Of a stretch of 64,000 bases of DNA, positions 3,952 to 50,374 are shown in pieces. Origin of the DNA: Pseudobythopirellula maris. GTDB taxonomy: Bacteria; Planctomycetota; Planctomycetia; Pirellulales; Lacipirellulaceae. The stretch spans positions 992,001-1,056,000 of the forward strand of contig NZ_SJPQ01000001.1 of NCBI RefSeq assembly GCF_007859945.1, given 5' to 3'. Positions within the stretch are counted from its first letter, which is position 1. Every line of letters begins with the position of its first letter. The translations under genes were made by a program, and so were the position numbers. Below the pieces are notes generated by a model. The model searched no databases. It had not been told where the DNA came from and saw only the letters and a program-made list of their open reading frames with translations.

Positions 3952-8597
<4,646 letters not shown>

Positions 8598-8619
8598 CCC
8601 TAGACTCGTTCCCTGAGGA

Positions 8620-8636
8620 GTGAACAAAACGTTCAC
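8620..8636. promoter_or_regulatory. Inverted repeat upstream of the CheB-CheR kinase
   Basis: GTGAAC-AAAAC-GTTCAC is a perfect 6-bp inverted repeat 22 bases before the kinase start. It could be an operator or a leader hairpin. It would lie inside the coding region if the upstream GTG were used. Confidence 0.3.
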
Positions 8637-19218: not shown

Positions 19219-19278
19219 CACCCCCCAAGCCCGCGTGAAGACAGCTACATCAATCCGAACCGAACCATGGAGGAAGCC

Positions 19279-26086: not shown

Positions 26087-27694
26087 CTAACGGACGAACC
26101 GGTCCCACGAGCCGTAACGCTCACACACCACACCGCGCGGCGCCGAGAGCGCAGCGACGGCGAGGCCCATGGCGGTGCAGGCGACGCCGTACACGACGCC
26201 CCCACCATCGAGCGCCCAGGGGGCGGCGGCGACCGCCACGCCCAACGGGATGTTCAAGAGGCGCCCGACGCGCACCACCTCGCCCATGCAAACGACCGAG
26301 ACGGTCGCGATCAACGCCCCGCCGATGTGGGCGACGTCGGCCGCCGCCGTCTCGACGCCGACGCCCAGCCAGGCGGGCGCCGCCATCAGCGCCACGCCGA
26401 GCGCGGTCGAGGCGGTGAGCGTCCAGGGGAAACTCATCCCCCAGATCGAGGCGAGGAATACCTCGCGCGGGCGACGGGGGAGCTCGATCAACTCGGGCGA
26501 GCGCTCGTCCGGCGTGCAGCCCTCGGCCTCGCCCCCCTTCCAGAAGATCGCCCATAGCGAGCCGCCGCGGTCGCCGCGGCGCTTCGCCCGCACCACGTGC
26601 AGGCACATCGCCACGACCTCGTCGACCTCGAGCGGGATCATCGGCAGCATGATGAGCGCCGCCAGCAGGCACATCGAGCACCAGTGGTGGACGAGAACCG
26701 GCTGCGAAGCGACCAGGAAGATGTGCGTCAGGCCCAGCGGGATGACCAGCACGCCGAAGAACGCGACCATCCATGGCATGGTGCGCCAGCGCGACGGGCT
26801 GCCCATAAAGCCCATCAGGAACTCAAACGTGTAGCTGAGCGACCCGAGGCCGGCGTCGGAGATCGGCCAGGCGTGCGACATCTTCGAGTCGAGCACTTGG
26901 CGGGTCCCCTGGGCGAAGCCGAAGAAAGGGTCCCACACGTAGGTGGTGTAGCCAAGCTGGTACACGGCCAGGTACCGCGACACCAGCCAACCGGCCAGCC
27001 CCGTGGCGATCATGATCCACCGTTGCGGCCAGCTCGAGGGGTTGTAGGTCCAGCCCGGCGGCGTGGGCGGGCCGTGCTTCATGTACATGATCATGTTCGG
27101 CATGCCGGGCACGAGGATCGTCAGCGAAATGAGCCAGGCGCCCACCAGCGTGTCATTGAGGTACCCCGAGGCGGTCGGGGCCCACAGCACCACGGGCGCC
27201 GCAGTGAGCCAGACCCCCACGAAGCAGCATCCCCACAGGCTCACCGGCCGGTCGGTCGAAAGCGCCCGCCAGCCGAGCACAACCAGCACGGCCCCGGAGA
27301 GAATGTCGCTCCAGGTCATGAGCCAGGCCCTCAGGGTCGTGTGCGTCTGGTCGCTGAACCACACGCCCCGGCCGCCGCTGGGGTCGACCCACAGCCCCTC
27401 GTTCAGGTAGCCGAAGCTCCATGGGGCGACGAGCAGCCACAGGCCCAGAGCCACGATCGACCAGTAGCACCACAGCGTCTGCCTGTGGTGCGTCTGGAGC
27501 ATCCGCCGCCGGTCATCGACTGACATGGCGTGGCCGTGCTGGTCTCCGCCGCAGTGATCTTGCCCGCCCGGCGAGTCCTCGCCCCCGTCTCTCTGGTCGT
27601 GTTCGTCATGGCCATGATCGCCGTGATTGGGTTCACCTTGCTGGTGATCGTCGTGCCTGTGATCGCTGTGCAATCCGACTTCCTGTTCGGCCAT
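26087..27694 (-). CDS. SPW-repeat / VKOR-like polytopic membrane protein with His-rich N-terminus
   Basis: The 535-residue protein begins with a ~65-residue His/Asp/Gly-rich segment (LHSDHRHDDHQQ..., HGDHGHDEHDQRDGG). Two or more SPW-type membrane repeats follow (GLWLLVAPWSFGYLNEGLW; VWLTAAPVVLW). The middle resembles vitamin K epoxide reductase, with the redox pair in VLVHHWCSMCLLAALIML. The C-terminal part has another SPW-like pair (TALGVALMAAPAWLGV). About 12 helices are visible. VKOR proteins reoxidise disulfide-forming partners; no DsbA partner is encoded nearby. The His-rich start may bind metal. I use ATG 27694 (GGAG 11 bases upstream); ATG 27727 is an alternative. Confidence 0.68.
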   Translation of the reverse strand: MAEQEVGLHSDHRHDDHQQGEPNHGDHGHDEHDQRDGGEDSPGGQDHCGGDQHGHAMSVDDRRRMLQTHHRQTLWCYWSIVALGLWLLVAPWSFGYLNEGLWVDPSGGRGVWFSDQTHTTLRAWLMTWSDILSGAVLVVLGWRALSTDRPVSLWGCCFVGVWLTAAPVVLWAPTASGYLNDTLVGAWLISLTILVPGMPNMIMYMKHGPPTPPGWTYNPSSWPQRWIMIATGLAGWLVSRYLAVYQLGYTTYVWDPFFGFAQGTRQVLDSKMSHAWPISDAGLGSLSYTFEFLMGFMGSPSRWRTMPWMVAFFGVLVIPLGLTHIFLVASQPVLVHHWCSMCLLAALIMLPMIPLEVDEVVAMCLHVVRAKRRGDRGGSLWAIFWKGGEAEGCTPDERSPELIELPRRPREVFLASIWGMSFPWTLTASTALGVALMAAPAWLGVGVETAAADVAHIGGALIATVSVVCMGEVVRVGRLLNIPLGVAVAAAPWALDGGGVVYGVACTAMGLAVAALSAPRGVVCERYGSWDRFVR

Positions 27695-27936
27695 CGGGCG
27701 TGTGACTCCGCGGGATTTCATCGGCATCGATGGGAGTTAGGGGCCGGGAGGTGAGAGGACGACTGCTTGCGACGTCCATGCAGAAAGCGCGCCACTAGCG
27801 CGGCCGCCCGGTCCACTCCGCCCGGCACACTTTTTGCCCGCAACACTTGGCGAGGGTCGCTCGAAGAGCACGCCTACCGAGACACGAGTTGGAAGTGACC
27901 AACAAAACACAAGCCACTTTGTGAAGGAGTACCGTC

Positions 27937-33271: not shown

Positions 33272-34435
33272 TCACGACATTTGAACGGCCGGGGTGACCA
33301 ATTCGACCTTGAGCCACCCCTCCTCGCGGCGGTCGAACGCCTCATAGGCCTCGATCGCCGAGACGAGTTTTTCTTGCTGGGTGACGAGCCGCATAGGGTC
33401 GACCGCACCAGTCTGCACCAGCCGCAGCAGCTCGGGCATGTAGCGGCGGTGATTGCAGTTGCCCATGTTGACCGTGAGGTTCTTGTTCATTGCGGCGCCG
33501 ATCGGGAAGCGGTCGTGCTCCGGGGGGTAGACGCCGATGATCGATACCGTGCCCGCCTTGGCGACACTCTGCACGGCCCAGTCAAGCGCCTGCGACGGGG
33601 CGCCACCCGGCTCCCACAGCTCGCCCTCGCCCTCGGAGGGTTCCGAATCGCCCCGCCTCTCGGCGTCGACGCCCACGGCGTCGATCACCCTGTCGGGCCC
33701 GATGCCGCCGGTCAGGTCGCGGAGCGTCTCGACCGGGTCCTCCTCGTCGAAATCGATCGTCTCGGCGCCCTGGGCGGTGGCGATCTCAAGCCGGCTGGGG
33801 AGGTTGTCGATCGCCAGCACTCGGCCGGCGCCGAGCAAGAAGGCGCTGACGATCGCGAACTGCCCCACCGGGCCGCAGCCGAAGACCGCCACTGTGTCGC
33901 CCGGTCCGACTTCGGCCAACTTGGCCCCGAAGTGGCCCGTCGGGAAGATGTCGGACAAGGGGATTGCTTGCTCGTCGCTCACCTCGTCGGGCAGCTTCAC
34001 CAGCCCCACGTTAGCGAACGGGATGCGGGCGTACTCGGCTTGCAGCCCGTCGAAGGGGCCGGTGGGCTCCGGGCCGCCGTAGAACGAGGTGCCCGCCAGC
34101 GATCCGTTGGGGTTGGCCGTGTCACACTGGGCGAAGTATCCATCGCGGCAGTAGGAGCAGCTGCCGCAGCCGATCGTCGATGGGATCACGACCCGGTCCC
34201 CGGCGCGCAGGTTGCGTACGCTCCTGCCGGTCTCGACCACCACGCCGACCGCCTCGTGGCCGAGCACCGTGCCGGGCTTCATGCCGGGCGCCGTGCCTCG
34301 CACAAAGTGGAGGTCGGTCCCGCAGATGGCGCTGGTCGTGATCTGAACGATCGCATCGTTGGGGTCTTGGATCTTCGGCTCGGGGATGTCGTCGAGACGG
34401 ATGTCGCCGACGCCGTGAAAAACTACGGCTTTCAT
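33272..34435 (-). CDS. Zinc-dependent alcohol dehydrogenase (formaldehyde-dehydrogenase-like)
   Basis: The 387-residue MDR enzyme has catalytic-zinc ligands in AICGTDLHFVRG and VLGHEAVGVV, a structural-zinc loop GCGSCSYCRDGYFAQC with all four cysteines, and the NAD-binding strand VAVFGCGPVGQFAIVSAFLL. The long insertion AERRGDSEPSEGEGEL, before ALDWAVQSVAKAGT, is typical of the FDH-like subfamily that includes glutathione-independent dehydrogenases. AAGGAG lies upstream of ATG 34435. It diverges from the P450 gene across 213 bases, so they may share regulation. Confidence 0.88.
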   Translation of the reverse strand: MKAVVFHGVGDIRLDDIPEPKIQDPNDAIVQITTSAICGTDLHFVRGTAPGMKPGTVLGHEAVGVVVETGRSVRNLRAGDRVVIPSTIGCGSCSYCRDGYFAQCDTANPNGSLAGTSFYGGPEPTGPFDGLQAEYARIPFANVGLVKLPDEVSDEQAIPLSDIFPTGHFGAKLAEVGPGDTVAVFGCGPVGQFAIVSAFLLGAGRVLAIDNLPSRLEIATAQGAETIDFDEEDPVETLRDLTGGIGPDRVIDAVGVDAERRGDSEPSEGEGELWEPGGAPSQALDWAVQSVAKAGTVSIIGVYPPEHDRFPIGAAMNKNLTVNMGNCNHRRYMPELLRLVQTGAVDPMRLVTQQEKLVSAIEAYEAFDRREEGWLKVELVTPAVQMS

Positions 34436-36606: not shown

Positions 36607-37758
36607 TCAGCTGTTGCGGTACTTGCCAGGAGACAAGCCGGTCTCGCGTTTGAACATCACCCCCATGTACTCGGAGTGCTTGAAGCCCGCCAGGCCTGCG
36701 ATGTTCTCTAGCGACAGGTCGGTCATCTTCAGAAGCTCTTTGCAGCGAGCGATCTGCACGTTGCGTATCTCCGCCTTGGGCGACCTGCCAAAGTGCTCGC
36801 GAAAGCCTCGCTCTAGCCAACTCCTCGAGACCGACATGTGGTCCAGGACATCCTGCACCGTGGCGCCTTCGCAGGCGTGATCACGGATGTACCGCAAAGC
36901 CCGGGCGATCTCGGGGTCGGGCACGGCGAAGATATCCGTGGACTGGCGGACCGCGACGCCGAGCGATGGGATCTCGGTGGTCTCGTTTTCGATGGCGCCG
37001 TTCTCCTCGCCTTGCATGATCTGGTCCAGGCGTTTGGCCGCCACGAAACCGATGCGTTCGGGATCGAGGATGATGCTCGACATCGGCGGGTTGGTGAGGT
37101 TGCAAAGCAGCTCGTCGTTGTCGACCCCTAGCACGGCGACCTCTTCGGGGACCATCAGGTTGGCGCGACCGCAGGCGTCGAGCACGTGGTGCCCCAGCAG
37201 GTCATTGGTGGCCAACACCCCCACTGGTCGGGGCAGGCTCACGAGCCACTCGGCGAGCCGCTCTTGGTCTTGGTCCCACTTCTGCGCTTGGACACGGAAC
37301 GGTTGCTCGTAGACGCGGCATTCGTGCTTCGTGAATTCGACTTCCGCCACAAACCCATCGGCCCGTTGTTGCGACCAATGCTGTCCCCGGTAGTGACAGC
37401 AGGCGAAGTGCTTGAAGCCACGCTCGATAAAGTGCTGGGCGCCGGCGCGACCACACGCGCTGTCCGCGGAGCAGATCCGCGGGATTCCCATGCTGGGCGT
37501 GAAGTTGCTCAGGTCGATGACCGCCATGCCGCGGCCCAGGATCGTTTTCTTCGAGTCCTCGGTGAGCTGCCGCGTGATGATGCCGTCGCCGCTCCAGCGA
37601 GAGAGCAGCCGCGTAACGTCACCGCCGATCTCGTGCTGCTCGATGTAGATCGACCACGGACGGCTCGAGATGAGGTACTGAGAGATCCCTTTCAAGATGC
37701 CGCGTCCGTAGAGACGCGAAGTCTCGACATCGAGGGCGACTCTTGGGCGTGATGTCAT
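36607..37758 (-). CDS. XylR-family (AraC-type HTH plus periplasmic-binding-like domain) sugar regulator
   Basis: The 383-residue regulator begins with RPRVALDVETSRLYGRGILK and a LacI/XylR-type sugar-sensing domain (EEVAVLGVDNDELLCNLTNP; PMSSIILDPERIGFVAAKRL). It ends in an AraC HTH pair (VQDVLDHMSVSRSWLERGFR; LENIAGLAGFKHSEYMGVMF). ATG 37758 is chosen; the frame is open to 37890 without homology. It is transcribed divergently from the PEP-CTERM/GH127 gene set, which it probably controls in response to a pentose or related sugar. Planctomycetes have many XylR paralogues, so D-xylose should not be assumed as ligand. Confidence 0.88.
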   Translation of the reverse strand: MTSRPRVALDVETSRLYGRGILKGISQYLISSRPWSIYIEQHEIGGDVTRLLSRWSGDGIITRQLTEDSKKTILGRGMAVIDLSNFTPSMGIPRICSADSACGRAGAQHFIERGFKHFACCHYRGQHWSQQRADGFVAEVEFTKHECRVYEQPFRVQAQKWDQDQERLAEWLVSLPRPVGVLATNDLLGHHVLDACGRANLMVPEEVAVLGVDNDELLCNLTNPPMSSIILDPERIGFVAAKRLDQIMQGEENGAIENETTEIPSLGVAVRQSTDIFAVPDPEIARALRYIRDHACEGATVQDVLDHMSVSRSWLERGFREHFGRSPKAEIRNVQIARCKELLKMTDLSLENIAGLAGFKHSEYMGVMFKRETGLSPGKYRNS

Positions 37759-37900
37759 TGCGTGCGTTCCTGGCCTGGGTCGCGAAACAACAGGCGGCTG
37801 CTCGCTAGCCGCGTTCCGGGTGGGGCTGTGCGAGAGAGTCTTGACGCTGTGGCCAACACGATCCAGCAGGGGACGCGTTGATCGCAGCATGCAGCCGAAA

Positions 37901-37936: not shown

Positions 37937-38349
37937 CAGCTACAACACAATCGTGTGCCGTCAGACTGGATGCTCTCGGCCTGCACGGCGTCAGTTGAAA
38001 AGAACGGCAATTACCGTGGCTTGGAGCGTTTATGGCAGCGGATCGCCATGCGGGCTGCCGCCGCCCAGCGACCCGCAAAGATCCTCTGTCGCTCCGGCAA
38101 AGAATCTCCTTTGTTATCGCTGCCGAGGTAGGTAGGGTTGGCTGTGGCTTCGGTGATCGAACAAGTGTGCTCGCTAAGCGAGACACACAAACTCATAGCA
38201 ATCGAGGCGGTGCGAGGGAGTATGGACAGAGGGCCGGAAGTTTTTTGCAGGACGATCCAAGTGATTCAGTGACACGACTCTGCGGCCGGTCGAAGCAACG
38301 GCGGAAGCGGCCGAGAGTTTGGCAAGACTACTCTCCAATGGGGGATGCG

Positions 38350-39786
38350 ATGATTCTTAAGACGTGCGCCTATGTCTCTTCTGCACTGACGCTGTGTGTC
38401 GCGTGTGGAGCCCATGCGGCTTCGCCCGTGACGGTGCTTGATAGTTCATTCGAGAATGTCCTCGCCGCCGCGACCCCTGAGGTTGTGGACGGCCCTAGCC
38501 CCTGGCGATTCGCGTGGGGGGGTGGCTTTGCGAGCCTGTACGAGTCGCCCTCGCCGCTGTACCCCAACCAAGATGGCGATTATTTGGGGAATGTCTTTCT
38601 CACCGAAGAAGCCGGCTTCGCCGCTCTCTACCAAGACGTGGTGACCATCCAAGAAGGCACCTACAAGTTCACGCTCGGTGTGGGCCACGAGCCCGACGCC
38701 GAGCCGTCGGATCAGCCGTTCCGGATCAACTTCGAGGCGACCGGCAACGGCCCTACGACGCTTGTGCAAGAGAACACTTATCCGCTCAACGCCTTTGACA
38801 GCGACGGGCTGACCGACATCACGGCCGAGGTGACCTTCGCTCCTGGCCACCCGGAGATCGGACGTAAACTCCGTCCCGTGCTGTTGGCCTCGGGTCCCGA
38901 TGCGGGGACGAACCCCGAGGACCCTCGGGCTAGCTACATGATGGACAACGCACGTCTCGAGTTCACGCCCACCGGCGGTCCCGATGAGATGGTCCGCGTT
39001 GGTCAGCATTCGTTTGACCCGCTTGATTGGAATCTGGCCGCCGGCACGAACGCGAACGCCACGCAGTACCGGCCCGAAGAGCCGCTCTTCGCCAGCCAAG
39101 ACAGCGACCAGCTGGGAGCCTTGACCGTGCGCGGCGAAGGGGGCTGGGGGGCGGCGTTTTATCAAGACACCACCACGATCGAAGAGGGCGTTTACTCGCT
39201 GACCGTCGGTGTGGCCCACGACCCGGAATTCGAGCCGACTAGCGCGCCGTTCCAAATCAACTTTGAATCGGTGGCGGCCAACGGCGCCGTGACCCTCCTG
39301 GGAGAAAACGTCTTCCCTGTGGGCTCGGCCAGCAGCACCGACCTGACCGACCTGACGGCGATGCTATCCATCCCCTCAGGGCTGCCCAACGTCGGCGAGA
39401 CTCTGCGTCTCGTGCTGCTGACGACCGGCACCGACGCCGGCTCGAACACCGAATCGGACGACCCGCGTGCGATCTACCTGCTCGACAACGTGCGTCTAGA
39501 GTTCGAGGCGGCGACCGGCGGCGTGCTTGTCGGTGACTTCAACGACAACGGGGTGGTCGACGCCGCCGACTTTACCGTGTGGCGTGACAACCTCGGGGCC
39601 GGCGACGAATCGTCGATCAACAACGCCGGCGACGGTCTCGGCGGCGTGGACATGGCCGATTATGACCTGTGGGTGGCCAACTTCGGCGACACCGCCGAGG
39701 CGTTGGCGGTCTCGGCGCCGGAACCGGCGGCTCTCTCGCTGCTGCTGCTCTTCGGGGCCTCGTGGGCCCTGCGTCGTCGGCAATGA
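38350..39786 (+). CDS. PEP-CTERM protein with duplicated domain and dockerin-like tail
   Basis: The 478-residue exported protein starts with a signal peptide (ILKTCAYVSSALTLCVACGA). Two copies of a ~175-residue beta-rich domain follow, starting near VTVLDSSFENVLAA and VRVGQHSFDPLDWN; both contain a FYQD/LYQD strand, G-x-Y-x-x-T-x-GV-x-H-[DE]-P and DPRAxYxxDN. Next is a dockerin-like calcium segment (DFNDNGVVDAADFTVWRDNL; GVDMADYDLWVANFG), then the sorting signal APEPAALSLLLLFGASWALR with RRQ. GGGGGA precedes ATG 38350; ATG 38338 is possible. A paralogue lies at 59166. It is likely anchored or released by exosortase and may bind polysaccharide. Confidence 0.83.
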   Translation: MILKTCAYVSSALTLCVACGAHAASPVTVLDSSFENVLAAATPEVVDGPSPWRFAWGGGFASLYESPSPLYPNQDGDYLGNVFLTEEAGFAALYQDVVTIQEGTYKFTLGVGHEPDAEPSDQPFRINFEATGNGPTTLVQENTYPLNAFDSDGLTDITAEVTFAPGHPEIGRKLRPVLLASGPDAGTNPEDPRASYMMDNARLEFTPTGGPDEMVRVGQHSFDPLDWNLAAGTNANATQYRPEEPLFASQDSDQLGALTVRGEGGWGAAFYQDTTTIEEGVYSLTVGVAHDPEFEPTSAPFQINFESVAANGAVTLLGENVFPVGSASSTDLTDLTAMLSIPSGLPNVGETLRLVLLTTGTDAGSNTESDDPRAIYLLDNVRLEFEAATGGVLVGDFNDNGVVDAADFTVWRDNLGAGDESSINNAGDGLGGVDMADYDLWVANFGDTAEALAVSAPEPAALSLLLLFGASWALRRRQ

Positions 39787-40006: not shown

Positions 40007-41011
40007 ATGGTGTCAAGGAATCACATCTCCCGGCTGAGGGAAGAGGGCGAGCCTAACGGGCGTCGCCAGCGTGCTCGGCGAGGATTCACCCTGGTCGAAT
40101 TGCTGGTGGTGATCGCGATCATCGGCATCTTGGTCGCGTTGCTTCTGCCCGCGGTGCAGTCGGCTCGCGAGGCGGCTCGTCGCACGCAGTGCATGAGCAA
40201 CCTCAAGCAGATCAGCCTGGCTTTGCAGAACTTCCATTCCGCCAAGCAGCACTTCCCCCCGGGGTCGCACGCCGAGAACGAAGCCGAGCGGACCGCGGTG
40301 CACCAGTGGACGATCTACCTGATGCCGTACCTCGAGGAGTTCGCGATCGCCGACCGCTACGACTGGAGCGCCGGAGACCGCAGCTCCGGGTTCGCCGCGA
40401 TCAACGGTCCGTTATTCCGCACGACAATCCAGTCGTTCCTATGCCCCAGCGATCAGATCGGCTACGTCAAAGACTGGGGCTGGTCGCACTCAAACTACGT
40501 AGGCTGCTTCAGCGCCGACGGGTCGTGGGTCGAGCCCGAAGGATGGACGGCCGACAACAACATCAACCACGCTTTCTACAACCCCTCGGTCGATTCGGGC
40601 CGGCGGGCCATCTTCAACCTCAACCGGACCCGTGCGATGAAGCACGTGGTCGACGGCACTTCGCACACGTTCGCCTTCTCTGAGGTGATTCACGGGGCCG
40701 ACGGGCAACTCGATTTCCGCGGCACGTGGTGCGTCGATCACGGCGTGGCCTACACGCACCGTCTGGGGCCCAACTCGACCCTGGATGATAAAGACGCCTA
40801 CGCCTGCCCCTACCCGCCTCGGCCCGGTGTTCCGTGCTCCAAGTCACCGAGCTTCGGCACCGCCTACTGGGCCGCCCGCAGTTTGCACGTCGGCGGCGTG
40901 AACGGGGCTCGCGTCGACGGCTCGGTGCAGTTCGTTCCTGACAGCGTCGACTCGGAAGTTTGGATCGCGTTGGGGAGCATCAACGGCGGAGAGGCGGACG
41001 CCAACCTATGA
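40007..41011 (+). CDS. DUF1559 prepilin-like protein
   Basis: The 334-residue protein has a type IV prepilin leader: a basic stretch to G26, then FTLVELLVVIAIIGILVALL with the conserved Glu at +5 (E31), so cleavage by prepilin peptidase is expected after G26. The DUF1559 (SBP_bac_10-like) body includes REAARRTQCMSNLKQISLAL and the C-terminal FVPDSVDSEVWIALGSINGG. AAAGGGAAAAG precedes ATG 40007. Planctomycetes carry dozens of these, commonly beside polysaccharide-degradation genes as here. The stop overlaps the next gene (ATGA). Confidence 0.93.
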   Translation: MVSRNHISRLREEGEPNGRRQRARRGFTLVELLVVIAIIGILVALLLPAVQSAREAARRTQCMSNLKQISLALQNFHSAKQHFPPGSHAENEAERTAVHQWTIYLMPYLEEFAIADRYDWSAGDRSSGFAAINGPLFRTTIQSFLCPSDQIGYVKDWGWSHSNYVGCFSADGSWVEPEGWTADNNINHAFYNPSVDSGRRAIFNLNRTRAMKHVVDGTSHTFAFSEVIHGADGQLDFRGTWCVDHGVAYTHRLGPNSTLDDKDAYACPYPPRPGVPCSKSPSFGTAYWAARSLHVGGVNGARVDGSVQFVPDSVDSEVWIALGSINGGEADANL

Positions 41012-41460
41012 ACAACCGCAGCCGATTCTCACCCGTCGCCGGCCGTCTTGCCTGTGTAGCGATGCTGTTCCTCGCGGGCTGCAGCAGTTCCCCCCAACGG
41101 GAGATCCGCGGCCAGGTCAGCCTCGATGGCCAGCCCCTCGAATCGGGCGAGATCCTATTCAAGCCGACCGCCGGGAGCGTCGGCCCCACCGCGGGCTCTT
41201 CGATCACGGACGGCGAGTACTCGATCCCGGCGGTCGCCCAGGGCGTTATCGCGGGCAACCAATACCAGGTATCGATCACCTCGATGGCGGGCAGCGGCCG
41301 CATGGCCCCCGATCCCAATGAACCGACGGGGCAACGCGAGTTGCTCGAGAACATCGTCCCCGAGCGCTACAACACCGACACCGAGCTGACGATCACCGTC
41401 TCGGCCGACAAGAGCGAGAATGTATTCGACTTCCCGCTGGAAAGCACACCCGAGCTGTAG
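41008..41460 (+). CDS. Lipoprotein with transthyretin-like fold, DUF1559 partner
   Basis: The 150-residue protein has a lipoprotein signal with lipobox LAGC, then a single beta-sandwich domain (IRGQVSLDGQPLESGEILFK; YQVSITSM; LTITVSADKSENVFDFPL) of the carboxypeptidase-regulatory/transthyretin type. It is coupled to the DUF1559 gene by an ATGA overlap, a very frequent planctomycetal pairing. It probably sits in a membrane facing the periplasm and assists the prepilin-like protein; the mechanism is unknown. Confidence 0.82.
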   Translation: MNNRSRFSPVAGRLACVAMLFLAGCSSSPQREIRGQVSLDGQPLESGEILFKPTAGSVGPTAGSSITDGEYSIPAVAQGVIAGNQYQVSITSMAGSGRMAPDPNEPTGQRELLENIVPERYNTDTELTITVSADKSENVFDFPLESTPEL

Positions 41461-41500
41461 CGGCCAGATCTGCTGCCAACGGCTCCGACCACGGACCTCA

Positions 41501-43798
41501 ATGAACGACGGTATGAAACGCAATCGAACCAGTAGCTCGACCGCCGGGCCAGACGCCGCTCGCGGCCGCCAGATCGTAGGCTTCTTGCGAAGCACACGAT
41601 TCACACTCCTTGCCGCGCTGAGCGTTTGTGGAAGCCTCAGCGTTAGTGGGAACGCCACGGCGAGCGACTGGGCGGCCGAGCCGGCCATGCTCCCCTGCCC
41701 GACCGCTCGTATGGAGCTCAGCGGGACGGTCAACGACTACACACAAGCGGTCGTCGAGAACTGGCTGCTGCGGGCGCCACGCGACAATCCGGCCATGCTC
41801 GAGATGTTCGCCGACCGCGATGAGCGGCCACACCGTGAGCTCTTGCCCTGGTCGGGTGAATTCGCCGGCAAGTACCTCACCTGCCTGGTGCAGGTGCTGC
41901 GGCTCTCGGGCGATCCGCGACTCGAAGAGCTCGGCGAGGATTTCGTCGGGAAACTCGTCGCGTTGCAAGCCGACGACGGCTATCTCGGTCCTTTCCCCAA
42001 GGAAAGCCGGCTGACAGGAAAGAAGCCGAACGGCAAACGCACCTGGGACGCCTGGGGGCACTACCACGTGATGCTGGGCCTGTTGCTGTGGCACGACCAG
42101 ACCGGCGACGACGCCGCGTTGGAGTGCGCCAGCCGCATCGGTGACCTGTTCTGCGACAAGTTCCTTGGCACGGACAAGCAAGTCTCCTCGATGGGGAGCG
42201 CGGAGATGAACCAGGCTGTGGTTCACTCGCTAGCGTTACTCTACAACCGCACCGGCGAGCAGAAGTATCTCGACCTGGCCAACGACATTGTCCTCGATTT
42301 CGCCGCTCCGAACGCCGGCAACTACCTGCAGGCGGGGCTCGAGGGGCTGGAGTTCTTCGAGATCCCTAAGCCGCGTTGGGAGAGCTTGCACTCGCTCATG
42401 GGCTTGGCCGAGCTCTACTGGAACACCGGCAAGCGAGACTACCGCGACGTGTTCGAGCACTACTGGTGGAGCATCGTCGAGCTCGACCGCCACAACAACG
42501 GCGGGTTCTCCTCGGGAGAACAAGCGCACGGCGACCCCTACCACCAAGGCCCGATCGAGACCTGCTGCACCGTCGCCTGGATGGCGATGAGTGTCGAGAT
42601 GCTCAAGATGACCGGCGACTCGCGGGTGGCCGATGAGCTGGAGCTGTCGACCCTCAACCAAGCGGTCGGCACGTACTCTCCCGACGGCATGTGGAGCACC
42701 TACAACACGCCGATGGACGGCCGCCGGGTGCCGAGCACGGTCGACATCGCCTTCCAGATCCGACCCGGCAGCGAAGAGCTCAACTGCTGCAGCGTCAACG
42801 CGGCGCGCATGTTCGGCATGATCTCAGACTGGGCCGTCATGCGGGAGGACGACGGCCTCGTGCTCAACTGGTACGGGCCGAGCGAGTTTGAGGAACAACT
42901 GGGCGACGCCAAGGTGAGCCTGCGTCAAGAGACCGACTACCCGCGCGACGGGGCGGTCAAGCTGCACGTCGACCCGGACGAGCCGACGGAATTCACGCTG
43001 AAGCTGCGCATCCCTCACTGGTCAAAGAACACCAAGGTCGCCGTGAACGGCGACCCCGTCGAGGCGTCCCCCGGTTCCTACTTGGCGATCGACCGCCGGT
43101 GGCGGGCGGGCGACGTGGTCACGCTCGAGATCGACGAATCGATCCGCTGCTGGGTTGGCGAGAACGAGTGCGAGGGCAAGGCCGCCTTGTACCGCGGCCC
43201 GTTGCTGATGGCTTACCGCGAGCCCTCCGCGGCCAAGGTCAACTACGGCGAAGCCTGGAACGCGTACGGCCACTTCCGTGCCGCGAGCGAAGCCTCGGCC
43301 AAGGTCGAGTGCGTGTTCTACGGCGACTCGCTCGAGTGGCGTGGCTTCTACATGGACGACGCCGGCAAGGCGCGCATCACGATCGACGGCGAGGCAGTCG
43401 AGGTGGTCGACCAGTACGGACCCAAGCGGAACAAGCCGTTCGTCCGCAAGTTCAACGGACTCGGAGCTGGCAAGCACGTCGCCACGATCGAGGTGCTGGC
43501 CGAGCATCACGCCAAGTCGAAGGGCGTGTGGGTGAACATTCAAGACCTGAAGACCTCGGCCGACATCCCCACGCTGGGCCCCGAAACCATTCGGCAACCG
43601 AGCAGCATCATAGCCGTCGCCGATGGCTTCCTGGAGTGCAGCCTTCCCGGCGAAGGCCGTGCCCCTGTCAAGTTGCGTGATTTCGCGACCGTCGGCTTAG
43701 GCGGCGCGACCTATTCCTCGTGGCTGCCCGCCGAGGGAATCCCCGCGACACCCTTCAGTCGCGACAACCCCTCACGCACCTCGGTGGTCTCGCCGTGA
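41501..43798 (+). CDS. GH127-family beta-L-arabinofuranosidase-like glycoside hydrolase
   Basis: The 765-residue exported protein has an N-terminal hydrophobic segment (STRFTLLAALSVCGSLSVSG) and an (alpha/alpha)6 barrel. The GH127 active-site motifs are visible: IETCCTVAWM with the Glu and Cys, and ELNCCSVNAARMFG with the nucleophile Cys pair that binds zinc. Beta-sandwich domains follow, including FTLKLRIPHWSKNTKVAVNG, typical of the family. The last ~170 residues add a galactose-binding-like extension. Family members release L-arabinofuranose or related sugars. ATG 41501 is chosen. It starts the catabolic part of the cluster, 41 bases after the lipoprotein. Confidence 0.85.
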   Translation: MNDGMKRNRTSSSTAGPDAARGRQIVGFLRSTRFTLLAALSVCGSLSVSGNATASDWAAEPAMLPCPTARMELSGTVNDYTQAVVENWLLRAPRDNPAMLEMFADRDERPHRELLPWSGEFAGKYLTCLVQVLRLSGDPRLEELGEDFVGKLVALQADDGYLGPFPKESRLTGKKPNGKRTWDAWGHYHVMLGLLLWHDQTGDDAALECASRIGDLFCDKFLGTDKQVSSMGSAEMNQAVVHSLALLYNRTGEQKYLDLANDIVLDFAAPNAGNYLQAGLEGLEFFEIPKPRWESLHSLMGLAELYWNTGKRDYRDVFEHYWWSIVELDRHNNGGFSSGEQAHGDPYHQGPIETCCTVAWMAMSVEMLKMTGDSRVADELELSTLNQAVGTYSPDGMWSTYNTPMDGRRVPSTVDIAFQIRPGSEELNCCSVNAARMFGMISDWAVMREDDGLVLNWYGPSEFEEQLGDAKVSLRQETDYPRDGAVKLHVDPDEPTEFTLKLRIPHWSKNTKVAVNGDPVEASPGSYLAIDRRWRAGDVVTLEIDESIRCWVGENECEGKAALYRGPLLMAYREPSAAKVNYGEAWNAYGHFRAASEASAKVECVFYGDSLEWRGFYMDDAGKARITIDGEAVEVVDQYGPKRNKPFVRKFNGLGAGKHVATIEVLAEHHAKSKGVWVNIQDLKTSADIPTLGPETIRQPSSIIAVADGFLECSLPGEGRAPVKLRDFATVGLGGATYSSWLPAEGIPATPFSRDNPSRTSVVSP

Positions 43799-43944
43799 GA
43801 CCGTTGACTCCTAAGGGCAGCATTGAACACACCAACGGCACGGGTCGCTCGAGCGAGCGGCTCACGCCGCTAGGCGGGCCCAGCACGCCCGCCGCCGGCG
43901 AACGATCTCTTCAAGCAGGCGACTCATCACACAGGCGAGACGAT

Positions 43945-45381
43945 ATGGAACAAGCGGCCGAGGCCACCACGAGCGACGGCGATTACCAGAGGGAACCGGT
44001 TCCCGAAGGGTCTCGGCTTGGGTTCAAGAACTTTGTCGGCATGTACGCCGGTGAGCACACCGCCGGCACGGAGCTGATGATCGGGCCGCTGTTCGTAGCG
44101 GCCGGGGTTAGCGCGACCGACATGCTGCTCGGCTTGCTGGTTGGCAACTTGCTGGCGGTCCTCTCTTGGGTGCTGTTCACGGCGCCGATCGCCACCCGCG
44201 CCCGCCTGACGCTCTATTACCAGCTCGAACGCATCTGCGGCCGCAAGCTGGTGGTGGTCTACAACTTCGTCAACGGCGTGATGTTCTGCTTGCTGGCCGC
44301 CTCGATGATCACCGTGGCCGCCACGGCGGTCGGCGTCGGCTTCGACATCTCGATGCCGCAGCTGGACGACGTCTACCCGAACAGCCTCGGCTGGGTCGTG
44401 TCGGTCGCCTGCATCGGGGCGCTGATCTCGATCGTCGCCGCCTACGGTTACGAGACCGTTTCGCGGTTCGCGAACATCGCGGCGCCGTGGCTGGTGCTGA
44501 TCTTCCTCGCCTTTGGGTTGATCGCCCTCAGGCAGTTCATCACCGCCACGGGCAAGGACATCGACTCCCTGGCCGACCTCTGGCGTATGGCGAACACCGA
44601 CATTTGGAAGGGTGGCGAGCCGCTCGAAGGCAAGACCAAGTTCACCTTCTGGCACGTGATGTTCTTCGCCTGGTTCTGCAACATCGCCATGCACATGGGC
44701 ATGTCGGACCTCACGGTTTTCCGCTTCGCACGCAAATCGTGGTACGGCTTCGCGACCGCCTCGGGCATGTACCTGGGACACTTCTTGGCTTGGATCGCGG
44801 CGTCGCTGCTTTACTCACTCCAGTTGTACGAAACGCCAGGCAACACCGAGGTGCTCCCCGGGCCGATGGCTTACAAGGTGCTCGGCGCCGCGGGGGTGAT
44901 CTGTGTGGTGCTCGCCGGTTGGACGACGGCTAACCCAACGATCTACCGCGCCGGACTCGCGTTCCAATCGATCGTGCCGAGCGCATCGCGTTTCGCCGTC
45001 ACCCTGTTTGCCGGCGCCTTGGCCACCGTGGCCGGCATGTTCCCGGCCATCGCCATGCAGTTCCTCGAGTTCATCGCCCTGTACGGGCTGGTGCTGATGC
45101 CGGTAGGGGCGGTGATCTTTGTCGACTTCTGGCTCAGCAAGAGGCTCGGCTTCCAAGACAATTACGCCGAACGCACGGGCAAGGGGTTCAACCCCGCCGC
45201 CGCGGCCGCGTGGGTTCTCACCCTAACCATCTGCATCGCCAGCGTTGTCTGGGGCGGGGTGCAAATTTACTTCGTCAGCTTGCCCGGATGGCTGATGGCG
45301 GCGGTGCTATACATCGTCGTCAGTCGTTTGATCCAGAGAAGACCCTTGGAGAGCCCCGTCGCGGAGGCCCGAACGCTATGA
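43945..45381 (+). CDS. NCS1-family (nucleobase-cation symport-1-like) permease
   Basis: The 478-residue protein has about 12 transmembrane helices. NCS1-like features include the N-terminal [40 protein letters not shown], and [17 protein letters not shown]. Known members import nucleobases, allantoin, hydantoins or thiamine, so placement between a GH127 hydrolase and polyol enzymes is surprising; a sugar, polyol or nucleoside substrate must be considered. ATG 43945 begins the natural polar N-terminus; the open frame from 43795 is unsupported. Its stop overlaps the next gene by 4 bases. Confidence 0.78.
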
Positions 45382-45578
45382 CAGCTTTGCTCAAAACGTT
45401 GTCGCTGCTCGCGCTCGTGGGCGTGCTGGCGCCATCGGTGCTGTTCGTCGTCGACGCGATCGAACTGGAACGCGTCAAGACGCTCACCCTCGTGGCCACG
45501 GTGGCTTGGTTCGTCATCACGCCGATTTGGATGGGGCGCCACACCGTGACACAACTCGAACCCCAGGGGCAACCATGA
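45378..45578 (+). CDS. Small two-helix membrane protein, permease partner
   Basis: The 66-residue protein has two hydrophobic helices ([37 protein letters not shown]) and a short polar tail. It is joined by ATGA overlaps to the permease upstream and the dehydrogenase downstream, which makes it almost certainly a real gene and probably an accessory subunit of the permease. No family name is known to me. Confidence 0.72.
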
Positions 45579-46642
45579 ATGTAGCCACCATGAAAACCGG
45601 CGCGCTCACCCAGGCGCTCGTGCTCGAGAGGGCGGGCGAACTGAGCCTGCGACCGATCGAGATCGAAGAGTCCATGGGGCCCAACGACGTGCGAATCGAC
45701 ATCCACACCGTGGGGGTGTGCGGCTCGGACGTGCACTATTACCAACACGGCAGCATCGGCCCGTTCGTGGTCAACGAGCCGATGATCCTCGGGCACGAGG
45801 CGTCGGGCACGATCAGCGAGTTAGGCTCCAGCGTGCGGGGGCTTCGCGTTGGCGACCGAGTCTGCATGGAGCCCGGAGTGCCGGACGCCGAGAGCCGCGC
45901 CGCGCGGCTCGGCATGTACAACCTCGACCCCGACGTCAGGTTCTGGGCCACGCCGCCGGTGCACGGCTGTTTGCGTCCGTCGGTGGTCCACCCGGCCGCC
46001 TACACGTTCAAGGTCCCCGACAACGTGAGCTTCGCCGAGGCGGCGATGATCGAGCCGCTCGCCGTGGGGCTGCACGCCGCGAACAAGGCGAACGTGCGGG
46101 CCGGCGACCTAGCCGTCGTGCTCGGCGCGGGGCCGATCGGCATGGTGACCGCGCTGTCGGCGCTCGCCGCCGGCGCCAGCCGTGTGGTCATCTCCGACGT
46201 GCAACAGACGAAGCTCGACCTCGCCGCGACGCTCGGCGCCATCACCCCGGTGAACGTGGCCGAGGCGTCGCTCGAGCAAGAGATCGGCCGCCTCACCGAT
46301 GGCTGGGGGGCCGACGTGGTCTTCGAGGCGAGCGGCAACGAACGCGCCGCCGCGGGCGTGTTCGACTGCCTGCGGCCGGGCGGCTGCGTGGTTTACATCG
46401 GCATGCCCTCGGGGCCCATCCCCTACGACGTGCTGGCGGCTTCGGTGAAGGAGGCTCGCGTGGAGCACGTGTTCCGCTACGCGAACGTTTACCCCCAGGC
46501 GATCTCGCTGATGGCCAACGGCAAGATCGATGTCAAACCACTGATCACCGACACCTACACGTTCGCCGAGAGCGTGGAGGCCTTCGACTTCGCCGCGGCG
46601 ATGCCGGCGGGGAGCGTCAAGGTGCAGATCGCTTTGGGCTAA
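45575..46642 (+). CDS. Sorbitol/xylitol/L-arabinitol dehydrogenase-type MDR enzyme
   Basis: The 355-residue NAD-dependent enzyme has the polyol-dehydrogenase pattern: [31 protein letters not shown] with catalytic-zinc ligands, [40 protein letters not shown], and the cofactor loop [20 protein letters not shown]. The four structural-zinc cysteines found in many relatives are absent ([15 protein letters not shown]). Such enzymes oxidise xylitol to D-xylulose, L-arabinitol to L-xylulose or sorbitol to fructose; the exact polyol cannot be read from the sequence. It starts at ATG 45575 overlapping the small membrane protein; ATG 45590 is an alternative. Confidence 0.85.
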
Positions 46643-46788
46643 CGCTTTGCGTCGCATCGGCCATGCGTCGCACGCAAACATTTCTGAGGGACAGGCAACA
46701 GGCGGGATGAATTATGAGTATTGATATATCGGGGCCCCTGCGGTTCCACAGCGGCGTTCGAGTGGGGACCAATGCAAAAAGCGAAGGC

Positions 46789-47520
46789 ATGCGGATCGAC
46801 CTCACCGGCAAGCAGGCCATGGTAACCGGCGCCGGCAAAGGCATCGGCCGCACGATCGCCACTCTGCTGACCGAATGCGGGGCGGAGGTCGTCGCGTTGA
46901 GTCGCACCCGTGAGGACCTCGATTCGCTCTCCAGCGAGATCGGCTGCCGCACGCTCGTGACCGACCTTGAAGACCCCGAGGCCGCGGCCGAGGCGGCCCG
47001 GCAAGCGGGAGACGTCGACCTGCTGATCAACAACGCCGGCATATCGATCCCGCAGCCGTTCCTCAACACCTCGGTCGAGTCGCTCGACCGCACGATGTCG
47101 GTCAACCTGCGTTCGGTGCTGGTTGTCAGTCAGATCGTCGCCAGGGGCATGATCGAACGGGGCGTGGGAGGTTCGATCGTCAACATCTCGAGCCAGGCGT
47201 CGCTCGTGGCGCTAGCCGATCACGCCTCTTACTGCGCTTCGAAGGGCGCCCTCGATCAATTGACCCGCGTGATGGCCCTCGAACTCGGGCCACACGGCAT
47301 CCGTGTCAATTCGGTCAACCCGACGGTCACGCTCACGCCGATGGGCGAGATGGCGTGGGCCGAGCCGAGCAAACGCGACGCGATGCTCGCCAAGATCCCC
47401 TTGGGTCGCTTCGCCAAGCCGAACGAGATCGCTCAGGCTGTCGCTTTCTTGCTCAGTGATCACAGCGGGATGATCAACGGAGTCACACTGCCGATCGACG
47501 GCGGCTACCTCATTGCTTGA
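46789..47520 (+). CDS. DCXR-type L-xylulose/dicarbonyl reductase (SDR)
   Basis: The 243-residue short-chain dehydrogenase has TGAGKGIGR (cofactor loop), NNAG, VNISSQASL (Ser), YCASK (Tyr and Lys). The C-terminal pattern is VNSVNPTVTLTPMGEMAW ... KIPLGRFAKPNEIAQAV, and its close match to animal dicarbonyl/L-xylulose reductase, from memory, is striking, including VSQIVARGMIERGV and MALELGPHGIRVNSVNPT. That enzyme interconverts L-xylulose and xylitol with NADPH. ATG 46789 gives the usual ~244-residue length; ATG 46714 would add 25 residues of no homology. It follows the polyol dehydrogenase, suggesting a linked pair. Confidence 0.83.
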   Translation: MRIDLTGKQAMVTGAGKGIGRTIATLLTECGAEVVALSRTREDLDSLSSEIGCRTLVTDLEDPEAAAEAARQAGDVDLLINNAGISIPQPFLNTSVESLDRTMSVNLRSVLVVSQIVARGMIERGVGGSIVNISSQASLVALADHASYCASKGALDQLTRVMALELGPHGIRVNSVNPTVTLTPMGEMAWAEPSKRDAMLAKIPLGRFAKPNEIAQAVAFLLSDHSGMINGVTLPIDGGYLIA

Positions 47521-47547: not shown

Positions 47548-48597
47548 ATGAAAAGAGACACCATGACCGATAGCAATATTGCTGGCCGCATGCTCCTTCA
47601 GGCCGCGTTCCTAGGCCTGGCCGTGATGGCGGCCGGCGACGCCAACGCCCAGACCAAGCTGGTTTGGCCGATCGAAGGTACGCCCTTCGAGGAGTGGTCG
47701 ATCGGCAACTACGTCGACCTCGACACGCGTCCCGTCGCCCGCCGCGATTACCGGGGCGGAAGGATCACCTACGACGGCCACGACGCCCTCGACATCGGTC
47801 TGCCTCACTTCCGCGCCATGGAAGAGGGGTACGACATCTACGCCGCCGCCGCCGGCACGGTCACCTTCGCTAAAGATGGCGAGTACGACCGCTACAGCTT
47901 CTCCAACCCGGCGCCCCCGGGCGAATCGGGCAACTACGTCGTGATCGATCACGGCGACGGTCTGACCACGCTGTACGGTCACATGCGTAAGGATTCGGTC
48001 GCGGTCACCGCCGGTCAAACCGTGGCGGCGGGCGAGGTCATCGGCCAGATCGGCAGCTCCGGACAGTCGACCGGCCCGCACCTGCACTTCACGGTGCGGG
48101 TCCACGGGCAGGCGGTAGAGACCTTTCTCGACCCCGATGCGTGGTGGGACGACCCGCTGCCGTACTCGGGCGAAGTGGCGACCGTGATGGACTCAGGGAT
48201 CGCCAGTGATTGGCCCACCACCGAAGAAGTCGAGTACGGGGTGGAGCATCAGGGGGTGTTCCAGGCCCAGTCGACCGGCCAGCTGGTCGTGATGTGGAAC
48301 TACCTGTTCGGCATCGCCGAAGGCTCGTCGGTCAGCCTGAAGATCCACCGTCCGAACGGCAGCGTGTTCTCGGACTTCGCGTGGATCCAGCAAGGCTTGG
48401 GCGGCGGGTACTGGAACCACGGCGTCGTGCTGCCGCCGAACCCCGAGTTGGGGCTGTGGCGCTCGGAGCTCACCGTCAACGGTTCGGTCCTCACGAGCAA
48501 CCCCTTCCGGATAGTCATCCCCGAGCCCTCGTCGGGCTTGTTGCTCGCGGTTGCGGTGGGGACGCTCCGCATCGCTCGCCGTCGGCGTCGCGGCTGA
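47548..48597 (+). CDS. M23 (LytM-type) metallopeptidase with PEP-CTERM anchor
   Basis: The 349-residue protein has a signal peptide ending near GDANA and an M23 domain whose zinc ligands are complete: GHDALDIG (HxxxD) and GPHLHFTVRVHG (HxH), with YVVIDHGDGLTTLYGHM between. A ~130-residue beta domain follows, then a PEP-CTERM tail (VIPEPSSGLLLAVAVGTLRI, ARRRRRG). M23 enzymes cut peptidoglycan cross-links or other Gly-rich peptides. ATG 47548 is chosen over TTG 47527 and ATG 47563. It continues the sugar cluster after a 27-base gap; its link to pentose use is unclear. Confidence 0.82.
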   Translation: MKRDTMTDSNIAGRMLLQAAFLGLAVMAAGDANAQTKLVWPIEGTPFEEWSIGNYVDLDTRPVARRDYRGGRITYDGHDALDIGLPHFRAMEEGYDIYAAAAGTVTFAKDGEYDRYSFSNPAPPGESGNYVVIDHGDGLTTLYGHMRKDSVAVTAGQTVAAGEVIGQIGSSGQSTGPHLHFTVRVHGQAVETFLDPDAWWDDPLPYSGEVATVMDSGIASDWPTTEEVEYGVEHQGVFQAQSTGQLVVMWNYLFGIAEGSSVSLKIHRPNGSVFSDFAWIQQGLGGGYWNHGVVLPPNPELGLWRSELTVNGSVLTSNPFRIVIPEPSSGLLLAVAVGTLRIARRRRRG

Positions 48598-48673: not shown

Positions 48674-50374
48674 ATGCGCCTCCCGACCAACGTAGCCTCG
48701 ATCAGTCGCCTGACAGTCTTGTTGTTCGCCGCGCAGTGCTGCGGTGTTTGCGCGGCTGCGGATCTCTCCGAGCAGAGCAGCGCGGTGCTCGCCCCGCTTG
48801 AATGGGAAACCGGCGTGCTCGAGCCGGGCGCACGGGCGTTTCTGGATGTCGAGTTCGGCTTTGAGAACGTGCCGGAGGAACTCGCCGGGCGTGAGTTCCT
48901 GCGCACGAACCTGCTCGGGACACGCAAAGTGAGTGTCGAGGCGGGGGCCGTGTACGCCATCACGCCGAGCAAAGGTTCCGGCGAGTTCTCCCAGGCGACG
49001 GAACTCGAGCGGCTCGGCTTCCGCCGAGTGGACGATATCGAAGAGTTCGAGGCCTTCGGCGGCGATTGGGCCGGCACGCCTTGCAGCGTCTACACGAAGC
49101 ACGTCGAGGCCGATGAGCGGATCGACATCGTCTCGCCCGAAATCGTGCTGAAGTCTTACCCCTCGGCCGACGACCCGCAGACCATCCCTTACCGCCAGAA
49201 CAAGTGGTGCGTGATCGTCGCCCGGGCGCCGGCGGCCAGCGGGACGATCGGCGATCTTGCGCCCGAGCCGCGGTCGGTGTTCAACCCGCCGCTGGCGCAG
49301 GATTACACGATCGCCGCCGAGACGCCGAGCCTCGCGTACTTCGTTCACGACCCGGGCATGATCCGGTTGCCCAACGGAGAGTTACTCTCATTCAGCCCAT
49401 GCTGGAAGCGTCCTTCGCGGGTCGGCAAGGCCGAGGGCGCCTACGTGATCATCACCAAGAGCGTCGACGGCGGGAAAACGTGGCGCCGGCTGCCCGACCT
49501 GCCCTACGCCGAGGCGACGCCGTTCGTGGTCAAGGGCAAGCTTTATTTGTTCACCCAACCGAAGCAGCACCACGACGTGCACTTCGTGCGCAGCGACGAC
49601 AACGGCGAGTCGTGGTCCGACCCGGTGAAGGTGCTCGACGGGCCGTATTGGAACTGCCAAACCAGCTACGTCGAGAAGGACGGATTCCTCTATTGGGTGC
49701 TCGACAAACGCCACCAAGGCACGGTCGCGATCGCCGGCGATCTGTCGATGGACCTGCTCGACCCCCAGGCGTGGCGGATCTCCAACGTCCTCGATCCCGT
49801 CATGACGCCGCCCGAATTCCGCCCCCACGGGGTCGAGCGATACGCTGACGCGGAGCAGCAGAGCAAGTTTCGCGACTGGAATCTCGAGGGCAACGTGATG
49901 CTCGTGGGCGACCGGATGCGGATCGCCGCGCGGGTGAACCCCAACCCGGGGGGCACGCCGGCGATCGCCACGCTGTTCGATCTCACCGACGAGGACGGCG
50001 AGCTCAAGCTAACCTATGACCAACACTACCCGTGGCCCGGTGGGCAGAGCAAGTTCGCTATCGTGCAGGACCCGGTAACAAAGCTCTTCTGGATGGCGTG
50101 CAACGTCTCCGCGGGGCCGATGGTCAAGGGCCACGCCCCCGACCGCCGCTACCTGATGCTCTACTTCGGCCACGACGGCATGAACTGGCTGCCGGCCGGA
50201 TGCGTAGCCTTCGCCCCCACGCCCAGCCAATCGTTCATGTACCCCTCGATTCAGATCGACGGCGACGACTTGGTCGTGCTGTCCCGCAGCGGACGCGAGT
50301 CGGGTCACTTCCACGACGCCAACCTTTCGACCTTCCACCGCGTCAAGCGGTTCCGTTCGCTGGCGTGGTATTAA
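48674..50374 (+). CDS. Secreted sialidase/BNR-fold protein
   Basis: The 566-residue protein has a signal peptide (SRLTVLLFAAQCCGVCAAA), an unrecognised ~200-residue N-terminal domain, and a six-bladed propeller with Asp-box-like loops (SVDGGKTWRRLP; SDDNGESWSDP) typical of exo-sialidase-fold proteins. FVHDPGMIRLPNGELLSFSP and NLEGNVMLVGDRMRIAARVN are blade strands. The Arg triad of true sialidases is not obvious, so the enzyme may cleave other glycans or be a lyase-like relative. It is the last gene of the sugar cluster and meets a converging serine-hydrolase gene 46 bases on. Confidence 0.75.
   Translation: MRLPTNVASISRLTVLLFAAQCCGVCAAADLSEQSSAVLAPLEWETGVLEPGARAFLDVEFGFENVPEELAGREFLRTNLLGTRKVSVEAGAVYAITPSKGSGEFSQATELERLGFRRVDDIEEFEAFGGDWAGTPCSVYTKHVEADERIDIVSPEIVLKSYPSADDPQTIPYRQNKWCVIVARAPAASGTIGDLAPEPRSVFNPPLAQDYTIAAETPSLAYFVHDPGMIRLPNGELLSFSPCWKRPSRVGKAEGAYVIITKSVDGGKTWRRLPDLPYAEATPFVVKGKLYLFTQPKQHHDVHFVRSDDNGESWSDPVKVLDGPYWNCQTSYVEKDGFLYWVLDKRHQGTVAIAGDLSMDLLDPQAWRISNVLDPVMTPPEFRPHGVERYADAEQQSKFRDWNLEGNVMLVGDRMRIAARVNPNPGGTPAIATLFDLTDEDGELKLTYDQHYPWPGGQSKFAIVQDPVTKLFWMACNVSAGPMVKGHAPDRRYLMLYFGHDGMNWLPAGCVAFAPTPSQSFMYPSIQIDGDDLVVLSRSGRESGHFHDANLSTFHRVKRFRSLAWY

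Follow-up and report, generated by a model that had tools for sequence, protein, structure and literature searches.

A planctomycete gene cassette joining a predicted L-xylulose reductase and a xylitol/sorbitol-type dehydrogenase to a GH127-family hydrolase

We investigated a gene cassette in a 64,000-nucleotide stretch of the genome of Pseudobythopirellula maris (contig NZ_SJPQ01000001.1, positions 992,001 to 1,056,000; G000:C1:992001-1056000 in our numbering), hereafter the window, which belongs to an assembly of 5.07 Mb in 6 contigs. In this cassette, the genes for a GH127-family glycoside hydrolase, a permease, a SORD-type polyol dehydrogenase and a DCXR-type short-chain dehydrogenase/reductase (SDR) form a same-direction run, and a gene for a XylR-like regulator lies divergent from them. 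Our best reading, which we put forward tentatively, is that of a carbohydrate-use cassette in which the two oxidoreductases may interconvert L-xylulose, xylitol and D-xylulose and thereby feed a distant xylulokinase, XylB, in connection with the release of a glycoside and the import of the product. The cassette looks like a bacterial sugar-alcohol module, and not like the fungal-style route of L-arabinose catabolism proposed in the first-pass annotation of this DNA.

A conserved gene run with two oxidoreductases

All five genes named in the first-pass annotation are present in the window, and the run of hydrolase, permease, polyol dehydrogenase and SDR that it described is syntenic in two other genomes. 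The intergenic gaps within this run are 146, 193 and 146 bases, given gene starts chosen as in-frame ATGs ahead of the conserved part of each protein, the mechanical open reading frames (ORFs) being longer. Among the 59 genomes searched, that of P. maris included, clear SDR orthologs were found only in G018 (81% identity) and G034 (73%), with the next match at 43%. In both of these genomes, which are from the same family, the entire stretch from the regulator to an M23-domain gene is syntenic (L036 and L037, respectively), and the aligned parts are 53–86% identical. This conservation of gene order in two further genomes argues that the cassette is not a chance arrangement; it is real, and narrowly spread. 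At E<=1e-70, SORD relatives are present in 15 of the 392 genomes covered by a phylum-wide search, again counting P. maris.

The SDR (46789..47520, plus strand) is predicted to be an NADPH-dependent L-xylulose reductase. Its top solved match is the L-xylulose reductase 1pr9, which we take to be the human enzyme (272 bits, 55% identity), and the two proteins are identical at 10 of 10 compared positions (S38, R39, T40, N106, S135, Q136, H145, Y148, K152 and W190). The N-S-Y-K residues of 1pr9, presumably catalytic, and the Q, H and W that we take to line its substrate pocket are all present, whereas mouse carbonyl reductase departs from 1pr9 at four of the ten positions and lacks the pocket Q, H and W. 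Several bacterial members of the group, including the SORD-paired copies from Microvirga, Caballeronia and rhizobia, have I, L, A, V or M in place of Q136, so that Q at this site is not a general requirement of the group. We placed the window SDR in a tree of 31 rows comprising close relatives and 11 of 12 distant SDRs that had been taken from 8 of 30 loci of the 59-genome search and 4 of 80 loci of a contig search, leaving out two long rows (the second R. etli SDR and L131). The window SDR groups with its orthologs and a protein from an Opitutae bacterium (support 84/94), inside a clade of 15 rows (92/94) to which the human and mouse enzymes belong as well; where human and mouse DCXR branch among the bacterial DCXR-type SDRs is an open fork in this tree.

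Directly upstream, the SORD-type zinc polyol dehydrogenase (45575..46642, plus strand) is predicted to oxidize xylitol or sorbitol with NAD+. Its best match among solved structures is human sorbitol dehydrogenase (288 bits), compared to 220 bits for L-arabinitol 4-dehydrogenase (LAD). C49, H74, E75, E160, F64 and F300 of the window enzyme all align with human SORD, and we presume the zinc ligands to be among these residues. D208 is likewise an aspartate in human SORD and is an alanine in the NADP(H) ketose reductase 1e3j, and the four cysteines of LAD that presumably bind the structural zinc correspond to D, S, A and D. According to PMC2731777, F59 and F297 of human sorbitol dehydrogenase are equivalent to M70 and Y318 of fungal LadA, and these positions separate LAD from xylitol and sorbitol dehydrogenases. 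F64 and F300 of the window enzyme equal the human pair, that is, the xylitol/sorbitol pattern, with phenylalanine in place of both LAD-specific residues (M70 and Y318, A. niger LadA numbering). The first-pass assignment to a xylitol/L-arabinitol type accordingly holds for xylitol, now joined by sorbitol, but not for L-arabinitol.

Comparison with fungal and animal enzymes, suggested in the first-pass annotation as a check of its proposal, spoke against a fungal affiliation. In a SORD tree of 30 rows, the single fungal LAD row included joins ketose reductase 1e3j and mammalian SORD (99/95), whereas the window SORD belongs to a separate 21-row bacterial clade (100/100) of proteins from planctomycetes, rhizobia, Caballeronia and Rhodobacter. 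Within this clade, F300 is present in all rows and position 64 is F in 14 and Y in 7. A partial SORD from L221 (G490) and the two SORD paralogs of P. maris itself were left out, and neither the SDR nor the SORD tree held a fungal L-xylulose reductase or a fungal xylitol dehydrogenase. There is no sign of fungal ancestry of the window redox enzymes among the sampled rows; gain from a eukaryote, which we also considered, is unsupported by these rows, the placement of human and mouse DCXR being the open fork noted above. Separately, a second zinc alcohol dehydrogenase is encoded in the window (33272-34435, minus strand); across part of the protein it shares 32% identity with the SORD.

The redox pair in other bacteria and the sugar pathways of the genome

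An L-xylulose-reductase-type SDR beside a xylitol-dehydrogenase-type medium-chain dehydrogenase/reductase (MDR), the pairing described in the first-pass annotation, is found in the window and recurs in other bacteria. In Microvirga sp. KLBC 81, a single cluster encodes a SORD (66% identity) and an SDR (56%) together with an AraC-like regulator, an ATP-binding cassette (ABC) sugar transporter, XylB (556.5 bits, cut-off 380.25) and a dehydrogenase of the arabinitol/mannitol type, which at 318 bits is below its cut-off of 600. In G522, the SORD gene is preceded by a partial xylulokinase gene, truncated at the start of the contig. In S. meliloti, mannitol dehydrogenase converts D-arabitol to D-xylulose for XylB (PMC10433430), and, by analogy, the Microvirga cluster would follow the same logic. 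The rhizobial, Caballeronia and Microvirga (L115) clusters all contain both redox enzymes, with identities to the window proteins of 60–66% for SORD and 46–58% for SDR among the copies measured, and the two genes are adjacent or at most 2 kb apart, as in the cassette. However, the proteobacterial clusters that we read carry ABC transporters, along with XylB in Microvirga, whereas the cassette of the planctomycetes combines a secondary permease with GH127 and lacks a kinase.

We separately searched plasmids (PLSDB), where SORD matches (E<=1e-80) occurred in 231 records and SDR matches (E<=1e-60) in 48, with 40 of each listed. A listed SORD place lies within 2 kb in 19 of the 40 listed SDR records, although these counts are not independent, with many closely related Rhizobium replicons among them. 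Reading eight annotated plasmid stretches, seven picked by their SDR and one by its SORD, we found both enzymes together in four, each time with an ABC sugar transporter; the copy on K84 pAtK84c (L226) is annotated ‘xylitol dehydrogenase’. In Skermanella and Deinococcus, the SDR is encoded near an FGGY kinase, which in Deinococcus is annotated as ribulokinase, and SORD is absent from the listed rows; in Phyllobacterium it lies beside D-galactonate-type genes, showing that this SDR type occurs in other settings too. The kinds of enzymes in the cassette are known and the pair recurs in other bacteria, but its combination with GH127 and this permease appears to be a new variant; among the papers listed in our literature search, none gives an account of the cassette in its title or abstract opening.

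The xylulokinase that the first-pass annotation expected elsewhere in the genome is there: XylB scores 584.8 bits with TIGR01312 (cut-off 380.25) and 427 with PRK15027 (cut-off 912), and the remaining FGGY kinase of the genome is glycerol-kinase-like. The same annotation had named intact araBAD-type genes carrying the flux as evidence against its own proposal, and at the level of gene content this objection holds. araB, araD and araA form one run on contig 3 (671.6, 339.7 and 784.9 bits; cut-offs 428, 257 and 622), so that each exceeds at least one curated cut-off, with AraD falling below that of TIGR00760 (315 against 389). We further identified xylA (713.6 bits, cut-off 533) and, on contig 3, a rhaA-rhaB-rhaD run in which RhaB falls short of the rhamnulokinase cut-offs (419.5 against 528). 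The genome thus seems to encode the usual isomerase routes for all three sugars, L-arabinose, D-xylose and L-rhamnose. It contains eight aldo-keto reductases; of the three that were scanned, one exceeds the cut-off for L-glyceraldehyde 3-phosphate reductase, another stays under all cut-offs and the third has no match at 1e-15, and none of these three matched an aldose/xylose reductase model. The window itself also encodes, upstream of the cassette, a transketolase with thiamine pyrophosphate (TPP), pyrimidine and C-terminal domains (19267-21144).

The hydrolase, the permease and the neighboring genes

The GH127-family enzyme (ORF 41420-43798, likely start 41498, plus strand) matches the Pfam GH127 catalytic domain at 139.6 bits (cut-off 24.9) and the middle domain at 83.6 (24.2), and is probably secreted, judging by eye from its signal-peptide-like start. 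E314, E327, C329, C403 and C404 (numbered from base 41579) are invariant in the three cassette copies. When the window enzyme is compared with the beta-L-arabinofuranosidase 3wkw, presumably HypBA1, E338, C340, C417 and C418 align, at a score of just 72 bits, and the second glutamate of the window enzyme aligns only in the 4qjy alignment; the roles of these zinc-cysteine/glutamate residues are assumed here to be those usual in GH127. Matches to solved GH127 structures, which include beta-L-arabinofuranosidases, are weak (114 bits at best), and the best equivalog, aceric acid hydrolase, is far under its cut-off (131.7 against 950). Because the solved matches are weak and specificity is unreadable from the similarity to 3wkw, we refrained from naming a substrate.

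The permease (43945..45381, plus strand) is a member of a family that Pfam does not model: at a threshold as loose as E<=5 it matches no Pfam entry, it has no solved relative, and it bears a distant likeness to the NCBIfam cytosine permease (55.1 bits, cut-off 326). Within the order, 80 of 296 genomes, that of P. maris included, encode relatives. We fetched 20 loci outside the cassettes (L085-L104), hand-picked among the listed matches; the majority were top-scoring unbroken matches, and some distant ones were added. In 14 of the 20, L-rhamnose isomerase, RhaA, is encoded directly beside the permease on the same strand, at a distance of 0–156 bases. Among the other six, L092 and L093 are near contig ends, and L094, L101, L103 and L104 lack RhaA within the stretch fetched. 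The permeases of the cassettes group together (100/99) within an 11-row clade that includes rhamnose-operon permeases (96/93) and consists of seven RhaA-adjacent proteins, the three cassette copies and one without RhaA in its stretch. The seven nearest RhaA-adjacent permeases, from planctomycete L-rhamnose operons (RhaA, RhaB, RhaD and permease), are 61–68% identical by BLAST to the cassette permease, but the cassette carries SORD and SDR where those operons carry RhaA, RhaB and RhaD. Given this gene neighborhood, the family is a candidate L-rhamnose importer of planctomycetes; the main text of PMC3870299, which deals with rhamnose pathways, makes no mention of these bacteria (‘planctom’, ‘rhodopirellula’).

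Individual loci of this permease family have features of their own. The second copy in P. maris (48% identity; L101, C4:174000-193000) has genes for glucose-6-phosphate dehydrogenase and 6-phosphogluconate dehydrogenase in its vicinity. In one rhamnose locus, the permease gene is followed by one whose product matches the class II aldolase domain twice (L098:10003-11508). A 50% identical relative is encoded in a metagenome-assembled genome named Jiulongibacter sp. (L147:11183-12532), with no RhaA match in that locus.

The gene run extends beyond the five named genes on both sides. The XylR-like regulator (36607..37890, minus strand; Peripla_BP_3 and AraC helix-turn-helix domains) has ‘Xylose operon regulatory protein’ as its top solved match (188 bits) and marks the same cassette end in L036 and L037. 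The first-pass annotation had placed a XylR-type regulator over the run; the gene exists, but it is divergent and about 3.6 kb away from the GH127 gene. As a pointer to xylose it was set aside, since a second XylR-like regulator is encoded near the rhaABD run (L041). Between this regulator and the hydrolase, on the plus strand, are genes for a PEP-CTERM-like protein (38332..39786; weak motif, E 0.046, below cut-off), a DUF1559 protein with a pilin-like N-methylation motif (40007..41011), and a small protein without a Pfam match whose start resembles, by eye, that of a lipoprotein (40960..41460), all three conserved in both syntenic genomes. On the 3’ side, also on the plus strand, an M23 peptidase-domain protein (47548..48597), conserved in L036 and L037, begins 27 bases after the SDR if the chosen start is right, and is followed by a BNR-repeat, sialidase-like protein (48674..50374; BNR score below cut-off), which is kept in G018 (L036) and unmatched in the G034 stretch (L037). 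The BNR-repeat protein closes the cassette, and its substrate could reveal the polysaccharide involved; its predicted structure has a mean pLDDT of 33. Elsewhere in the window, on the minus strand, are a 1562-residue CheB-CheR-PAS-histidine kinase fusion (3948-8636) and a protein that combines a VKOR domain with an SPW repeat domain (26087-27727).

A possible L- to D-pentulose exchange and its alternatives

Under the reading that we tentatively favor, the GH127 enzyme, probably outside the cell, would free a sugar that the secondary permease would bring in and that would give rise to L-xylulose. The SDR would then interconvert L-xylulose and xylitol with NADPH, the SORD-type enzyme would oxidize xylitol to D-xylulose with NAD+ (net NADPH in, NADH out), and the distant XylB would phosphorylate D-xylulose for entry into the pentose-phosphate pathway. 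The two redox steps are suggested by residue-level similarity to characterized enzymes and by the clusters with a xylulokinase in Microvirga and, in partial form, G522. By this analogy, the cassette may be regarded as the planctomycete version of a redox pair from proteobacterial sugar and polyol operons. In the glucuronate-xylulose route of animals, DCXR is likewise followed by SORD; the same two enzyme families are involved and the residue patterns predict the same reactions, but the genomic setting differs and the window SORD is in a separate bacterial clade.

Several observations weigh against this reading. The cassette lacks a kinase, an isomerase and an epimerase, with XylB about 0.31 Mb away, and its spread is narrow, an SDR ortholog (73–81% identity) occurring in 2 of the 58 other genomes. 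GH127 points to L-arabinofuranosides or related acids, not directly to xylitol or L-xylulose, and the importer, given its relatives, may take an L-rhamnose-related sugar rather than a polyol; a rhamnose-type permease lowers confidence in a simple xylitol story. The pairing is also not uniform: among the 80 SDR loci listed in the contig search, a close SORD is nearby only in Microvirga, with two other listed loci near a distant MDR (26–30%). In 4 of the 40 listed plasmid SDR records, the listed SORD place is far off (one of these has a second, unlisted place), and 17 of the 40 are not assignable, since 40 of the 231 SORD records were listed. No xylulokinase is annotated in the five SORD-bearing plasmid stretches, for which the PLSDB gene tables are incomplete. 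Finally, position 64 of the SORD from G522 is Y instead of F, and SORD enzymes are promiscuous, so that sorbitol is a possible substrate.

The strongest alternative, which we consider possible though doubtful, is a general polyol module, not centered on pentoses, in which the two enzymes would work on hexitols or other ketoses; SORD might, for instance, convert sorbitol to a ketohexose and the SDR reduce a different ketose. The F/F pattern is common to sorbitol and xylitol dehydrogenases (PMC2731777), the best solved match is human sorbitol dehydrogenase, and, besides the absence of annotated xylulokinase from the five plasmid stretches, further SDRs are encoded next to the pair in two of them. 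On the other side, XylB is encoded in the Microvirga cluster and a partial xylulokinase upstream of the G522 SORD, and the SDR agrees with L-xylulose reductase at the presumed pocket residues.

An L-rhamnose-like route, in which the permease would take up L-rhamnose, L-lyxose or L-mannose, RhaA would make the ketose, and SDR and SORD would process it, appears unlikely. It would account for the nesting of the permease with rhamnose-operon permeases and for the RhaA-adjacent relatives, and rhaABD is available elsewhere in the genome. However, RhaA is missing from the cassette, and for rhamnose itself RhaB and RhaD are already encoded elsewhere. RhaA can convert L-lyxose to L-xylulose, and a bolder version of the pentulose reading, which we regard as distinctly improbable, combines the permease and chromosomal RhaA with SDR, SORD and XylB to turn an imported L-sugar resembling rhamnose in shape, L-lyxose or L-xylulose, into D-xylulose 5-phosphate.

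The fungal-style oxidoreductive route from L-arabinose through L-arabinitol, L-xylulose and xylitol to D-xylulose is very unlikely, and we reject it. The predicted steps from L-xylulose to D-xylulose are common to the cassette and the fungal pathway of LAD and L-xylulose reductase. In favor of the fungal-style route, the GH127 matches include beta-L-arabinofuranosidases, SDR and SORD are adjacent, and XylB is present. But the genome encodes an araB-araD-araA run as well as xylA, the window enzyme has F/F instead of the LAD-specific M70/Y318 and stands apart in the tree from the single LAD row, and the reductase for the first step was not identified among the 3 of 8 aldo-keto reductases scanned. 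Least probable of all, and scarcely credible, is that the SDR is a dicarbonyl-detoxifying reductase lying beside SORD incidentally: DCXR is also named dicarbonyl reductase, and NADPH-dependent reduction of diacetyl and methylglyoxal is reported for a different bacterial SDR, BPSS2242 (PMC7320009), but the SORD/SDR pairing recurs in planctomycetes and Proteobacteria.

These findings replace the claim of a fungal-type L-arabinose pathway with a testable one, namely, redox exchange between L- and D-pentuloses as in animals, coupled to a glycoside hydrolase. Moreover, they expose a permease family that lacks a Pfam model and is a candidate L-rhamnose importer of planctomycetes. The bolder version, if true, would mean that redox epimerization of L- to D-pentuloses is tied to polysaccharide breakdown by GH127.

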